Origin: Sorangium cellulosum So0157-2
Lineage (GTDB): Bacteria > Myxococcota_A > Polyangia > Polyangiales > Polyangiaceae
NCBI RefSeq assembly: GCF_000418325.1
Contig: NC_021658.1
Location: forward strand, 9,748,001-9,812,000
DNA: 64,000 nucleotides
Direction of reading: 5' to 3'
Position 1 is the first letter of the stretch; every line of letters begins with the position of its first letter. This document shows positions 7,439 through 17,607 of this stretch, piece after piece. The translations under genes were made by a program, and so were the position numbers. Below the pieces are notes generated by a model. The model searched no databases. It was given only the letters and a program-made list of their open reading frames with translations, and was not told the origin of the DNA.

Positions 7439-10270
7439 CTAGCTCGACGTGGACGCCCGCCCCGGGCTCGGAAACGACGGCTCCTCCGCCGTACCCGCCC
7501 GCCCCGGGCTCGGCGAGGACACCGGCTGCTTCGCGAGCCCCGGCGGCCCGGTCGGCAGCGTGGGCTCGTCCTCGAAGCGCATCGACGTGATCTTCAGCCG
7601 CCCGAAGATCGCCTCCGCCCGCTCGTTCATCGTCACCGCCTCGCGCCGCGCCGCCATGTTCGCCACGAAGCTCCGGTCCGTCGTCAAGAACCGCGCGTAG
7701 GCCTGGAACGTGCGCGCGAGCTCCAGCTCGTTCCCGGTCTCCTCGAAGATGCTCACCGACCGCGCGAAGTACGCGCGCGCGCTCTTCGTGTTCGCGCTGC
7801 CCCAGCCGCCCGCGGCCGTGATCTCGCCGAGCGTCCGGAGCGCGATGCCGAGGTGCACCTTGCTCCGCACCGAGGCGAACAGGTCCACCGCCCGGCTGAT
7901 CGAGTCGCGCGCCTTCTCCAGGTCGCCCCGGAGCATGTACGCCTTGCCGAGCGCGCGCCGCGCCTCCGCCAGGCCGAGCCGGTCGCCCAGCTCGTCGCAG
8001 AGCTCCTCGGCCTGCTGCAGCACCCGCACCGCCTCGTCGGGATCGCCGCTCCGGTAGAGCGTCCCCCCGATGTTCGTCAGGATGAGCGCCGTCCGGTTGC
8101 GATCGCCGACCTGCCGCGCCACCTCCAGCGCCTCCTCGAAGAGCGTGAGGGCGCGGCGGTGGTCGCGCTGATCCTGGGCGATCATCCCGAGGTTGTTCAG
8201 GCTCACCACGACCCCGAGCAGGTCCGAGATCTCGCGCCGGATCGCGAGCGCCCGCTCGAACGTGCTCAGCGCCTGCTTGAACTCCCCCGAGTCCTGCAGG
8301 GCGAGCCCGAGGTTGTTCAGCGACAGCGCGATCGAGCGGCGGTCGCCCATCCGCTCGCGGCGGGCGAGCGCGTCGCGCAGCCACTTGAGCGCCTCCTGGT
8401 ACTCGCCCCGGAGCCAGTGCAGCTTGCCGATGTCGTCGATGGTCGACGCGATCCCCCGCTCGTCCCGCGCGCCCTCGAACAGGCGGAGCGCGGTGGTGAG
8501 GTGCTTGCCGGCCTCGTCGAGCGAGCCGCTGTCGCGGTAGAGCCGCCCGATGCGGTTGTGCGCGGCGCCGCCCTTGCGCCGGTTGTCGAGCCGGTAGGCG
8601 AGCGTCAGCATCTCGCGGAAGGCGGCGAGCGCGTCGTCGATCCGCCCGGCGAGCTGCAGGACGTCGCCGTAGTCGTGCAGCGCGTCGATGCGCCGCGCGA
8701 CGTGCGCGTCGCCGAGCAGCGACAGCCCGCGCGCATAGTACTCCGCGGCCTTCGCGTTCGAGTAGCGCCCGCGCGCCACGTCCCCGGCGTCGAGCAGCGA
8801 CAGCCCCGCCCGCACCGCGTCGCCGATGCGCTCGCGGTGCGTCGCGAGCTCGGCGAGGAGCTCCTCGCTGGCGCGCACCGCCACCTGCTGCTCCAGCCAC
8901 TCGGCGATCGCGTGGTGGTACCGCCGCTGGGCCGCGGCGCTCATCCGCTTCTGGAGCGCCTCGCGCTCCTTGTCGTGCACGAACACGTACTCGTCCGAGC
9001 CGGCGAAGCTCGACTCGCCCTGCTTGCGCAGGTAGCCGCGGTCGCACAGCGCGCGGAGCGCGGCGTTGATCCGGTCGAGATCCCTGTCGCTCTGCTCCTC
9101 GCCCCACAGCTCGGGCGCCTGACAGCCGGCCCGGCCGAGCACGAACAGCGCGCCGCTCCAGAACACCGGGCCGATGGTCGCCGCCTGCTCGAGCAGCTGC
9201 CGGCCGTCGTGATCGAGCGCGGCGAGGCGGACGTTCACGGCGTCCTCGACCGTCGCCGGGAGGGCCGCCGTCGACAGCTTCCCGAGGTGCACGCGCCAGC
9301 GCGGCCCGCCCGAGTCGGGCGCGAGCTCCTCGATCACGCCCTGGTCGTGGCAGATGCGGACCATCTGCTCGACGAGCGCCGGGTTGCCGTTCGCGAAGGC
9401 GCAGGCCGCCTCGACGAGCTCGGCCGGCGCGCCCGGCCGGGCCTGCGACTCCGCCCCCGCGGCGTCGACGACGACGACGTCGTCGGCGCCGCGCGGCGTG
9501 CAGGGCGCGAGCAGCGCCCTCGCCAGCTCCGCCGCCTCGGCCTCGCCGAGCGGCGTGAGCTCGACGAGCGCGTGGCGCCGCTCGCCGACCTTGCCCCAGT
9601 CGTCCTGGCGGGTGAGCAGCTCCGGGCGGGCCGCGCAGACGATCAGGATCGGGCCCGCGAGGTACTCGACGAGGTAGCGCAGGAGCGCGAGCGAGTCGTC
9701 GTGGGCCGCGTGGAGGTCGTCGAAGACGAGGAGCATGGGGCCCTGGGCCGCGTCCGCCTCGAGGAACGCCTTCAGCACGGCGCGGCGGATGAGGTCGCCC
9801 TGCGCCGGGTCGTCCTGCACCGCGCGGGTGAGCGGGCTGTCGCCGAACGCGAGCCCGATGAACTGGCCGAGGAAGTAGATGACGTCGCCGACCTTGCGAT
9901 CGCCCATCACGTGCGCGACCTGCGCGCGGACCTCGGCGCGGGCCGCGTCCTTGTCCATGGCGTCCGAGAGGCCGAAGCGGGCGCGCAGGAGCCGCGCGAA
10001 GATGCCGTACGCGGACGCCACGTCGCCGGCGGCGCCCGCGTAGACGCGCAGCGCGGCGGAGCCCTCGCGCCGCCCCTCGAGGAACTCGCGTACGAGCCGG
10101 CTCTTGCCGATGCCCGGCGGGCCGACGAGCGTCACGGTCCGCGTCGAGCGCTCCCGCTCGACCGCGTCGAGGGCGCGGGCCAGCGCCGACAGCTCGGCCT
10201 CGCGCCCGACGAGCGGTGCGCGGGCGGGCGTCGCTGCGCCAGTTGCACTGTCCTCTCGGCTCATCTCCAT
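7439..10270 (-). CDS. STAND-type AAA ATPase with C-terminal TPR array
   Basis: 943 residues from ATG 10270; ATG 10264 has better spacing to an upstream GGAGG, and a GTG at 10306 lies in a duplicated segment. The N-terminus reads APLVGREAELSALARAL followed by Walker A GPPGIGKS (50-57). Walker B is LLVFDDLHAA. A winged-helix-like segment precedes about eight TPR units (roughly 500-900; for example SLNNLGLALQDSGEFKQAL). The C-terminus repeats SPSPGRA twice and is disordered. The layout matches AfsR/MalT-like STAND sensors or the ATPase half of myxobacterial kinase fusions, but without kinase, SARP or HTH domains. Inferred role: nucleotide-switched signalling scaffold. It is divergent from the EAD-like membrane protein, 150 bp away, which may be its partner. 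Confidence 0.88.
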   Translation of the reverse strand: MEMSREDSATGAATPARAPLVGREAELSALARALDAVERERSTRTVTLVGPPGIGKSRLVREFLEGRREGSAALRVYAGAAGDVASAYGIFARLLRARFGLSDAMDKDAARAEVRAQVAHVMGDRKVGDVIYFLGQFIGLAFGDSPLTRAVQDDPAQGDLIRRAVLKAFLEADAAQGPMLLVFDDLHAAHDDSLALLRYLVEYLAGPILIVCAARPELLTRQDDWGKVGERRHALVELTPLGEAEAAELARALLAPCTPRGADDVVVVDAAGAESQARPGAPAELVEAACAFANGNPALVEQMVRICHDQGVIEELAPDSGGPRWRVHLGKLSTAALPATVEDAVNVRLAALDHDGRQLLEQAATIGPVFWSGALFVLGRAGCQAPELWGEEQSDRDLDRINAALRALCDRGYLRKQGESSFAGSDEYVFVHDKEREALQKRMSAAAQRRYHHAIAEWLEQQVAVRASEELLAELATHRERIGDAVRAGLSLLDAGDVARGRYSNAKAAEYYARGLSLLGDAHVARRIDALHDYGDVLQLAGRIDDALAAFREMLTLAYRLDNRRKGGAAHNRIGRLYRDSGSLDEAGKHLTTALRLFEGARDERGIASTIDDIGKLHWLRGEYQEALKWLRDALARRERMGDRRSIALSLNNLGLALQDSGEFKQALSTFERALAIRREISDLLGVVVSLNNLGMIAQDQRDHRRALTLFEEALEVARQVGDRNRTALILTNIGGTLYRSGDPDEAVRVLQQAEELCDELGDRLGLAEARRALGKAYMLRGDLEKARDSISRAVDLFASVRSKVHLGIALRTLGEITAAGGWGSANTKSARAYFARSVSIFEETGNELELARTFQAYARFLTTDRSFVANMAARREAVTMNERAEAIFGRLKITSMRFEDEPTLPTGPPGLAKQPVSSPSPGRAGTAEEPSFPSPGRASTSS

Positions 10271-10361
10271 GGCCTCCACGTCCCCGGGCGCCGCAGCGCG
10301 GGGCACTCCCCTCGGCTCATCTCCCTGCCTCCGCGTCCTCGGGTGCCGCAGCGCGGGACAC
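10251..10361. repeat. Imperfect tandem duplication (about 55 bp x 2) spanning the STAND ATPase start
   Basis: Copies at 10251-10306 and 10307-10361 share ctcggctcatctcc, gcctcc, gtcc, cggg and gccgcagcgcggg blocks with about ten differences. The first copy holds the candidate start codons of the leftward ATPase; the second duplicates the same signal upstream. The translation start and promoter of the ATPase may therefore have been duplicated, which makes its N-terminus uncertain. Confidence 0.8.
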
Positions 10362-13828: not shown

Positions 13829-13911
13829 ACCGGTGCGTTACGGGGTTTCGGCGGGCAGGGCCAAGAAGCCGGCGCCAGGGAGCAGCTGGCCAGCGATCTG
13901 CGCGCAGCGGA

Positions 13912-16209
13912 TCAGGGGGAGTCCGCCGCCGGCGACTCGAGCACCTTCTTCAGCGCCTTCAGCGCCCGACTGACCCTCACCTGCACCGTGGAGACGTTCA
14001 TGCGGAGCGCAACGGCGATCTCCCTGAAGGTCAGACCGGAGAGCTGCATCTCCAGGAGGATACGCTGTCCGGGCGGGAGAAAGCTGAGGGCATGGCTCAG
14101 CCGCCGGGCCGCGTCCCGCCCCGTCGAGGTCTCCTCGGCGGTCGCCATCTCCGCCAGCATGTCGACCGCCTCGCGCGCCCGCTCGCGCTCCGTCGCGCGG
14201 CGCGACCTGCTCGAGGCGCGGCGAGTTTCTGGACGCCCCGGCGCTGCTTCCCGGGACGCGGGCCGTCCCGAGGCCAGCGCGGCGATCGTCGACGACCGCT
14301 GGCCGAGCTCCTCCGCGTCGGTCAAGTGGCCCGCCGCCGCTCGCGCGGCGGAGAGCGCATCGAGCACCGGCCGGAGCGCCGGATGCTCGGTGCCCAGGGC
14401 CTCCTCGAGGTCGCGCAGCGCTGCGCGCAGCAGAGGCGCCGCGCTGTCGTAACGGCCTGCGGCGAGCAACGCCTCGCCTAGGGCCTGGACGAGTGCGCAA
14501 CGCTCACGCAGGCGCAGCGCGCCCGGCGCCGTGGGGTCGCTCAGGAGCGCGGTCAGGACTGGCTCGCACCTGAGCACGAGTCCCTTCTGCCGCAGCGACG
14601 AGGCCAAGAGCGCTGCCGCTCCCCTCGCATCCATGCCGAGCGCGCTCCTCAGGAGCGCCTCGGCCTCGGCGCAACCCCCGAAGGGGACGAGCACCTTCGC
14701 GAACGGTGGCAGCAGGACGGCGAGCGCCCTCCGGGCCGTGCCGGGCCTCGCTCCGGCGGCGACGATCGCGCGGTCCAGGTGCGGCAGCGCTCGCTCGAGC
14801 TTTCGCGCGCCGAGGAGCGCGAGCGCGAACCCCGCCGCTGCGCGCGCACGCAGGGGACGCTCTGGCCGGAGGCTCGCCCGTGCCGAGGCGAAGGCGCGCT
14901 CCAGCGTCGCCAGCGCGGCCTCCCGCTCCCCTCGAAAGAGGAGCGCTTCGCCGGCCCGCACGCGCAGCCCGAGAGAGCGGGGGTGGTCGGGCTCTTCCGC
15001 CAACGCACGCCGCGTCCACGCGGCGCCAGCGTCGAGGTCGCCCAGATCGAACGCGGAGATCGCGAGCGTCGTCCAGGGTCGGGCCGATGGTCGGCGCATC
15101 CACAGAGCGAGCGAGTCGCGCCGCTTGCCCGCCGCGAGCCGGCGGCCCTCCGGCGTGCGTGCGAGCGCTCGCAGCACCGCCGGCGCGGCATCGCCCCGCG
15201 CCGTAGCCGCTCCATGGATGAGACCTGCCTCGATGGCTCGCGCGGCGAGGGCGGCGCCGGGATCGCCTGCGCCAGCCAGGATCGAGGTCAGAGCGCCCTC
15301 GTCCTCGCCGCGAGCGATGAGCCTCGCCAGGAGCTCCACCGCGTCAGGCTCCAACCCTGCGAGCGCCGCGAGGCGACCTGGCGACGCGGCGCCGACGTCG
15401 GCCAGCGCGCGCCGCGCCTCGGCCAAGGGGAGCATCGCGTCGTCGACCGGCCACCATCCCGGCAGCGCAGGTGGACAGCGCAGTCCGACCGGCGAGGCCA
15501 CCCCGGGCGCGACCACGATGGCCCGGGTGCCGCGCCTCGCCTCGGCGAGGGCCCAGCGGATGCGGCGCTGCAGCGTCGCGTGCTCCGCGGCGGCGACGAC
15601 CCACGCGCGGCCGGCGCCCTGGATGGCCTCGACCATCCGGGCATAGCCGCCCATGGGATCGATCCTCATGAGCCCGCGCCCTGGCAGCGCCTCCGAAAGG
15701 GCCGCGGCCACGGTCGCTTCGCCCCCGCGGCCGAGCCAGGCAACGCCGGGCGCCCGCGTCCTGAGCGCGCAGCGGATGCCCTGCGCGGCGTGGGGCGCAG
15801 CGCCATCCGGACAGCGGACGTACACCGAGATCCAGTCGAAGAAGTCGACAGCGTGACGGGCCAGCGCCGCCGATGTGGTGCGATCGCAAAAGAGGACCAC
15901 CCGCAGCCGCCGGCGCGCAAAGAGAGGGCGCTGGATGTTCAACCAGTCAGCGTCGCTCGCGCGCGGCACCAGCACGAAGGTGCTTCCCGGAGGGACCGTC
16001 TCCGCGACCCGTGGATCGACGTGGACATCGATCCCAGGGTGCTCGGGGAGGAGCGCCCGGACGAGCTCGCCGAGGCGCCCCGGACCGGCATGGTCCACGA
16101 GAACCAGGATCCCCGCGCGCGTCAGCCGGAGAGCGGTTCCGATCCTGCCGAGCCAGCCGTGCTCGGACGCAGGAGGTGCATCGTCAGCAACGGGTGCGGG
16201 TAATACCAT
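13912..16209 (-). CDS. Degenerate-NTPase / TPR / sigma-70 region 4 protein
   Basis: 765 residues from the ATG complementary to 16207-16209, overlapping the end of the upstream ATPase gene by 88 bp; a later start is possible. Region 1 (about 20-330) looks like a Rossmann-type domain: GILVLVDHAGPGRLGELV, WLNIQRPLFARRRLRVVLFC, AVDFFDWIS, then WLGRGGEATVAAALSEAL. In the last, GRGGEAT (160-166) sits where a P-loop GxGKT would be but lacks Lys, suggesting an inactive STAND-like fold. Region 2 (330-640) is TPR-like helical repeats. Region 3 (about 715-765) is a sigma-70 region 4 helix-turn-helix: ALSFLPPGQRILLEMQLSGL and FREIAVALRMNVSTVQVRV. There is no sigma region 2. Inferred: DNA-binding regulator switched through the neighbouring active ATPase. 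Confidence 0.75.
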   Translation of the reverse strand: MVLPAPVADDAPPASEHGWLGRIGTALRLTRAGILVLVDHAGPGRLGELVRALLPEHPGIDVHVDPRVAETVPPGSTFVLVPRASDADWLNIQRPLFARRRLRVVLFCDRTTSAALARHAVDFFDWISVYVRCPDGAAPHAAQGIRCALRTRAPGVAWLGRGGEATVAAALSEALPGRGLMRIDPMGGYARMVEAIQGAGRAWVVAAAEHATLQRRIRWALAEARRGTRAIVVAPGVASPVGLRCPPALPGWWPVDDAMLPLAEARRALADVGAASPGRLAALAGLEPDAVELLARLIARGEDEGALTSILAGAGDPGAALAARAIEAGLIHGAATARGDAAPAVLRALARTPEGRRLAAGKRRDSLALWMRRPSARPWTTLAISAFDLGDLDAGAAWTRRALAEEPDHPRSLGLRVRAGEALLFRGEREAALATLERAFASARASLRPERPLRARAAAGFALALLGARKLERALPHLDRAIVAAGARPGTARRALAVLLPPFAKVLVPFGGCAEAEALLRSALGMDARGAAALLASSLRQKGLVLRCEPVLTALLSDPTAPGALRLRERCALVQALGEALLAAGRYDSAAPLLRAALRDLEEALGTEHPALRPVLDALSAARAAAGHLTDAEELGQRSSTIAALASGRPASREAAPGRPETRRASSRSRRATERERAREAVDMLAEMATAEETSTGRDAARRLSHALSFLPPGQRILLEMQLSGLTFREIAVALRMNVSTVQVRVSRALKALKKVLESPAADSP

Positions 16210-17504
16210 TCGGACTCGTTCGGATACGGCAGCAGTGTACCGTAGCTCAGGAGCTCCTGCGCCAGATCCCCCTCGGGGAGGCTGTGCTCCGGATCGTCCA
16301 TCACCGCCCGCAGCAGCGCCTTGTGGCCGCGGTGCAGGCCGGTCTCCCGCTTGCGCCGTAGCTCGTCGAGCACCTTGCTGATGAGCTCTTCCGCCGCGCG
16401 CGGTGCGTCCGCGCTCCACGCGCGCCCCGCGAGGACCTGGATCGACGTAACGAAATCCCGAGCACGACCGCCAGAGTAGTAAGCGAGCCGCTCCAGGAGA
16501 GCGCGCTCGATCAAATCTCCCGCGCCGAGATCCGCGACCCGCCGCTGGAACAGGTCGCAGAAGAAGCGCACGCCGGGGCCCGGCTGGGAGGGGTCGCGCT
16601 GGAGCAAGACCGGCTCGTTCACGAGCGGCGGGACGTCGGTAAAACCGCGGAGCGAGGGCAAGGAGGGGTGGTGCCGCAACGCGAAGGGGCCGCAAACGAC
16701 CATCCTGCACGCGAGCTGGGCGATGGCGGTGGAGTCGATGAAGAGCTCTCGAGCGCGCTTGAAATCCCGGATGCGATCGAGCCCGTCGATCACGAGCAGG
16801 ACGTTCGAGCCCTGATGCTGCTCCACGAGCCCGATGATCACGTTCACGCACCGGACCATCGTCTGCATTTGCTGGTCCTGGTCGGGCAGCGAGCGCTTCC
16901 GGATGCCCAGGGGGAGGGCCCACTTGATCCCCTCGGCGGTGGCGCCGAGCAGGCTGAGCCCAGCGCCGACGCCCGCGGCCGCGGGGCCGGCGAGCGGAGC
17001 CGCCTTGGAGGCCAGGACGATCATCGACTTGGCCAGCGTGCCCATCTCGATCTTGGGGGGAGCCGAGACCTCACCCGTGGCCCGGGCCAGCGCCGACCAC
17101 GCATGCTCGAGATCCCGCAGGTGCGGGTCTGGTAGCCGGAAGGCGAGCCGCTCCTCCGCAGCGCGGAGCAGCGCGAGCCCGGCGAGGAAGCAGATCTCCC
17201 AGGAAGCCACGTTCTGGAGCGCGGGGATGTCGCCCACGACCTCCGAGAAGTGCCGCTCCAGATCGACGTAGACGACGAACTCGCGCTGGGCGCGCTCCTC
17301 GGCGATGCGGTAGAGCTCCGTCGTCTTCCCCGTCCCGATCGTCCCCGTCAAGAGGACCCGTGGCGTGCCGAACGGCCGATCGAGGGCTTCACCGATCGTG
17401 GGCGCAGGGCTCTGCATCCGAGGCGCGCGCCACGCGGGCTCGTCTGCTGGCCTTTCTGGATCGAATCGCTCGAAGAGGGTCTGCCAGAGCGGGCGGCACG
17501 ACAT
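16122..17504 (-). CDS. P-loop ATPase paired with the sigma-4/TPR protein
   Basis: 460 residues. Walker A is GTIGTGKT (54-61) and Walker B is [10 protein letters not shown] (Asp240). A hydrophobic Ala/Gly-rich stretch ([20 protein letters not shown], 161-180) could be a hairpin insertion but is too polar at its ends for a confident membrane helix. The C-terminus (about 375-440) looks like a winged helix: [20 protein letters not shown]. The protein resembles STAND/KAP-like NTPases; I cannot place it in a named family. It is the first gene of a two-gene unit, and its 3' end overlaps the next start by 88 bp, which implies coupled expression. The promoter should lie in the 103-bp gap shared with scoA. 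Confidence 0.8.
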
Positions 17505-17607
17505 GCAGGGCGCACCGTACCACGATGCGCCTTACCGCGTCGCGTCACGAGCCGACGGTAGCGGAGGCTTTTGCCTCGCGGCCAGTTGGGGTACCTCTCG
17601 GTCGGCC

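Follow-up and report, generated by a model that had tools for sequence, protein, structure and literature searches.

A two-gene cassette was identified in the window, a stretch of 64,000 nucleotides from the genome of Sorangium cellulosum So0157-2 (14.78 Mb, single contig). It encodes an ATPase with intact nucleotide-binding motifs and, directly downstream, a partner protein whose predicted N-terminal fold comprises two inactive AAA+-like lobes and whose C-terminus carries a sigma-70 region 4 domain. The cassette is a self-contained unit of soil myxobacteria, and it is accessory. We favor, with some reserve, the reading that the pair is an accessory two-subunit ATP-driven switch, likely serving in defense against invaders or stress and responding through transcription instead of killing.

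Gene 1 encodes an ATPase with intact Walker motifs

Both genes lie on the minus strand and start with ATG. Gene 1 (17504..16122) encodes the ATPase of 460 aa and gene 2 (16209..13912) the partner of 765 aa, and the 88-bp overlap between them (16122..16209) agreed exactly with the preliminary description of this DNA. A chance overlap of open reading frames was ruled out, since the pair is conserved across the phylum. The conserved MVLPxP start of the partner was considered as a functional motif and rejected, because the same nucleotides, read in the frame of the ATPase, encode its motif SEWYxPHPLL.

The Walker A (GTIGTGKT, residues 54-61, 17322..17345) and Walker B (VLLVIDGLD, residues 235-243, 16776..16802) motifs, read as intact from the first, were confirmed on the minus-strand frame. 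Of 42 homologues aligned, 41 had Walker A, and the IDGLD of Walker B was conserved in alignments of the ATPase. The single exception was the ATPase of a Paraliomyxa locus (L009, 7992-9326), in which the Walker A lysine was lost (GTSGSGLST); this protein adjoins a partner with a complete ECF sigma factor, a combination that counts against the switch reading.

The AlphaFold model of the ATPase (pLDDT 90) showed an AAA+ core followed by a lid and a C-terminal winged helix, the latter including a conserved motif at residues 424-440 (16185..16235). The best matches of the model in the PDB were ORC/Cdc6 (Z 15.8), the NRC4 resistosome (14.7), TnsC (14.1) and CED-4 (13.5). The gene 1 product is thus, as modeled, an ATPase of the ORC/Cdc6-TnsC-STAND (CED-4/NLR) class, and the earlier STAND-type reading is supported by these matches. 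The core, lid and winged helix are the fold common to ORC/Cdc6, TnsC, CED-4 and the plant NLR ATPases; similarity in sequence lay below family cut-offs, and function is not transferable. Pfam scores remained under the curated thresholds (AAA_16, 26.0 against 32.6; nSTAND_NTPase5, 21.4 against 34), and PADLOC returned only a weak mad8 match for the ATPase (22.8 bits). Residue R322 of the ATPase, like R94 of the partner, was invariant among homologues, and each is a candidate for the arginine finger that is conserved in both proteins of the nSTAND2 system discussed below.

The partner begins with two predicted inactive AAA+-like lobes

In the AlphaFold model of its first 380 residues (pLDDT 88), the partner formed two five-stranded Rossmann-like lobes (35-132 and 155-255) and a helical segment. 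The N-terminal ~260 residues were modeled as two tandem AAA+-like lobes, at residues ~12-136 (lobe 1, 15802..16176) and ~137-258 (lobe 2, 15436..15801), and the helical segment follows at residues ~259-372 (15094..15435). In structure comparisons with VIA-align, AAA+ proteins accounted for 50 of the 50 matches listed. Lobe 1 matched TnsC (Z 10.3, 116 residues at 2.8 A) and lobe 2 a dynein AAA unit (Z 9.3, 118 residues at 3.6 A). The Foldseek matches of the lobes were weak (best E-value 1.5e-3), which counts against the switch reading.

No Walker A motif was found in any of 28 partner homologues. Profile comparison with hhalign detected no sequence homology between the lobes and the ATPase, so that "dead AAA+" is here a class assigned by fold, which also counts against the switch reading, and a sequence search of solved structures returned no relative of the lobes. 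These data support the proposal that the partner has a dead NTPase-like fold. The structural search that had been named as a possible refutation yielded AAA+ folds for the N-terminus and not an enzyme with an active site of its own.

The most widely conserved part of the partner is lobe 1, with the motif LNxxRP...APDFxDW, and it was recognizable in several distant relatives. The only invariant residues were N91, R94 and D122. The sequence GRGGEAT, previously placed at the P-loop position, does occupy the beta1-alpha1 loop, in the second of the two lobes; it was not conserved in homologues (consensus WxGxxLEA) and was rejected as a P-loop decayed at the sequence level. The inactive lobe that precedes it had not been separated in the first reading.

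The two genes are constant neighbors

ATPase relatives occur in Sorangium, Polyangium, Paraliomyxa, Enhygromyxa and myxobacterial metagenome-assembled genomes, and a search of 379 Myxococcota genomes gave matches in 50. Where the ATPase match exceeded 300 bits, the locus was examined for a downstream gene with the same N-terminal domain as the partner; locus L028, which ends at a contig edge, was left out. In each of the 29 testable loci the partner lay directly downstream of the ATPase, with an overlap of 43-91 bp in 25 of them. The constant adjacency expected of the pair was thereby borne out, and the second refutation foreseen, homologues that are never adjacent, did not apply. When the partner domain alone was used as the query, matches were obtained in 19 of the 318 genomes searched within the class, and the ATPase was found again in every newly fetched locus whose contig extended far enough. 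The trees of the two proteins were correlated (Mantel r 0.77, p 1e-4) and had 11 of 24 splits in common; judged from their sequences, the two proteins co-evolve.

The C-terminal output of the partner is exchangeable

Downstream of the helical segment, the partner of the window carries TPR repeats (residues ~377-645, 14275..15081), confirmed by Pfam as three stretches of TPR_12 (48 bits, cut-off 30), and a sigma-70 region 4 helix-turn-helix (residues 702-753, 13951..14106), likewise confirmed as Sigma70_r4_2 (44 bits, cut-off 26). Of the regions of an ECF sigma factor the partner thus has region 4, and the Pfam scan found no region 2. Region 4 was also the sole DNA-binding domain above cut-off in the pair, with no helix-turn-helix of the LuxR/GerE or OmpR type among the Pfam matches.

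In most homologous partners the lobes were followed by TPRs only, and in some by no named domain; that most partners fall into these two groups counts against the switch reading. Others had larger outputs: TPRs with a complete ECF sigma factor, region 2 present (L009); TPRs with a Ser/Thr kinase and an FGS domain (L053); a calcineurin-type phosphoesterase with a sub-threshold AAA_16 and TPRs (L067); or NACHT with a calcineurin-type phosphoesterase whose best match was to antiphage phosphoesterase models (L116). More distant ATPases preceded proteins that retain, at a minimum, the lobe 1 core motif in combination with a phosphoesterase (L121), an FGE/FGS-like domain (L074), or NACHT-type domains with pentapeptide repeats (L076 and L077). 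The effector-like domains sought in homologous loci were thus found as phosphoesterase, kinase, FGS and NACHT domains.

In the sister clade of the window (L052 and L115) the partner ends after the helical or TPR-like part, without a sigma domain, and the region 4 is therefore most simply a lineage-specific gain. As far as these comparisons go, it is most simply read as a lineage-specific output joined to an older two-gene core.

The cassette is accessory

By DNA comparison, the sequences that flank the pair adjoin one another in two congeners (G579 and G581), with only 75-250 bp between them. In the window the flanks reach up to 13876 and resume from ~17534-17553, which defines a segment of ~3.65 kb (13877..17552) that is missing from both congeners at the same junction. 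In a third congener (G580) the junction was occupied by a dehydrogenase-like gene, indicating that it tolerates different cargo; by reading, this gene (L133, 8254-9329) is a dehydrogenase of the 2-hydroxyacid or D-lactate type at the same intergenic junction.

Two copies of the cassette were present at other sites in G581, and a decayed second copy was found at 5.89 Mb in the window genome itself (L070, G000 C1:5.884-5.897 Mb), where the C-terminal part of an ATPase stands with a frameshifted partner. Codon GC3 was 0.85-0.87 in the pair and lower than in its neighbors (0.95-0.98). No direct repeat of at least 8 bp was found between the two segment edges. In a plasmid search the ATPase had a single distant match, on a plasmid of Nostoc, and the partner had none; a phage search gave no match for the ATPase. 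The flanking genes are those of a murein endopeptidase and CoA transferase genes; these flanks are housekeeping or metabolic and not a defense island, which counts against the switch reading.

A further AAA_16 and TPR protein of 955 aa, with a MalT-like TPR region, is encoded a few kb from the pair (7439-10306, minus strand), and the DNA of this gene is conserved in congeners.

Comparison with known systems

The pair had been interpreted as a MalT/AfsR-type regulator split in two. Both arrangements combine a STAND-type ATPase, a TPR sensor and a helix-turn-helix output in one regulatory unit. MalT and AfsR are single chains with a LuxR-type or OmpR-type helix-turn-helix, whereas the window has two chains and a sigma region 4, and the pair differs further in its extra inactive lobes and in an output that is not constant. 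The split was not supported: the ATPase has a C-terminal winged helix of its own, the partner has two additional inactive lobes, most homologous partners are without a DNA-binding domain, and the sister clade lacks the sigma domain.

Closer parallels were found among predicted NTP-dependent conflict systems, as had been suggested, both in conflict-type relatives and in an operon of Nostoc. In the mobile nSTAND2 system, two genes encode an active and an inactive STAND protein, the latter bearing the effectors (Kaur et al. 2021, eLife, PMC8195603). Like it, the window has adjacent active and eroded STAND-class NTPases, the inactive lobes being so classed by fold only, and the family shows variable effector modules on the inactive protein. 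The named nSTAND2 outputs are mostly GT4 or HEPN, neither of which was found in the partners scanned here, whereas the window partner has two inactive lobes in tandem and a sigma region 4; the likeness described here is one of architecture.

The iSTAND, or VMAP MoxR-vWA, ternary systems also combine an inactive STAND partner with exchangeable effectors (Kaur et al. 2020, eLife, PMC7159879). They have in common with this family the inactive STAND partner, the swappable calcineurin phosphoesterase, FGS and kinase domains, and multicellular hosts; they comprise three components, whereas the window has two, with no MoxR or vWA gene beside the pair. Plasmid p057_J of Nostoc sp. C057 (L125, 117128-129874) carries an operon of VMAP (VMAP-M1, VMAP-C), MoxR and, in the vWA position, a SAV_2336 protein to whose C-terminus an ATPase homologous to that of the window is fused (212 bits against the ATPase profile). 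This homologue stands in the effector position of the systems of Kaur et al. 2020 (PMC7159879), and from its place in the operon the SAV_2336 protein is presumably the vWA component. The fusion gene precedes one for a small protein that has hydrophobic stretches.

Conflict-type use of a sigma-like domain has a precedent in bacterial TRADD-N proteins with an ECF-like helix-turn-helix, which the authors interpret as a means of responding through transcription (PMC8195603). The likeness to the window lies in the ECF-sigma-like output, and a TRADD-N domain was not detected in the pair. We therefore read the cassette as a STAND-like pair with one active and one inactive member, of the type that Kaur et al. 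reported, presumably with a transcriptional output, and not as a split MalT.

Alternative explanations

A plain ATP-dependent regulator of host genes, similar to MalT/AfsR in two chains, would sense a metabolite or protein and use region 4 to activate or repress host promoters, with no role in conflict. The TPRs and DNA-binding C-terminus of the partner, the complete ECF sigma of L009, the STAND-like ATPase and the metabolic genes in the flanks would all fit such a regulator. It is nevertheless unlikely, given the patchy presence of the cassette, the empty site in two congeners and the decayed copies, and given that most relatives are without a DNA-binding domain and some have phosphoesterase, kinase or FGS outputs.

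Alternatively, the activated region 4 might bind the beta flap of RNA polymerase, block normal sigma use and halt transcription in infected cells. A region 4 without region 2 and conflict-type relatives are consistent with such a shut-off device, but the homologue in L009 has a complete ECF sigma, which suggests promoter recognition rather than blocking, and we regard the device as improbable. That the partner begins with a Rossmann domain of an ordinary or unrelated kind (TIR- or enzyme-like, for instance), the pair being a loose operon without a common complex, is more improbable still: Foldseek E-values above 1e-3 and the absence of a sequence match between lobes and ATPase would agree with it, but every listed VIA-align match was an AAA+ protein, the two genes are adjacent and co-evolve, and N91, R94 and D122 alone are invariant, with no obvious catalytic set.

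Proposed model of a two-subunit switch

The pair probably acts in the manner of an immune-type sensor-switch that has been redirected toward gene regulation. We infer complex formation, ATP-driven switching, sensing by the TPRs and action of the sigma region 4 on promoters or RNA polymerase. In this model of an ATP-driven switch, the inactive lobes would attach to an ATPase oligomer or complete it, sensing of the trigger (a protein or complex) would fall to the TPR region of the partner, ATP binding or hydrolysis would switch the assembly, and the exposed C-terminus of the partner would deliver the response. The outputs of some relatives (phosphoesterase, kinase, FGS or NACHT) are conflict-system domains and that of the window is a sigma-70 region 4; the output here would therefore most likely be binding to -35-like DNA or to RNA polymerase, with changed transcription when the trigger is present.

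More tentatively, the cassette may represent an undescribed class, found largely in Myxococcota, of two-subunit immune-type AAA+/STAND switches in which a live ATPase acts with a partner of two inactive lobes and, in some members, a killing effector has given way to a fragment of a sigma factor. If so, the sensing of invaders would be wired directly into transcription. The family offers a compact, testable pair of active and inactive ATPases with interchangeable outputs. Comparison of members that have the same core and end in a sigma region 4, a complete ECF sigma, a kinase or a phosphoesterase would reveal the role of the inactive lobes, and would tell whether bacterial immune-type switches control transcription rather than kill the cell.
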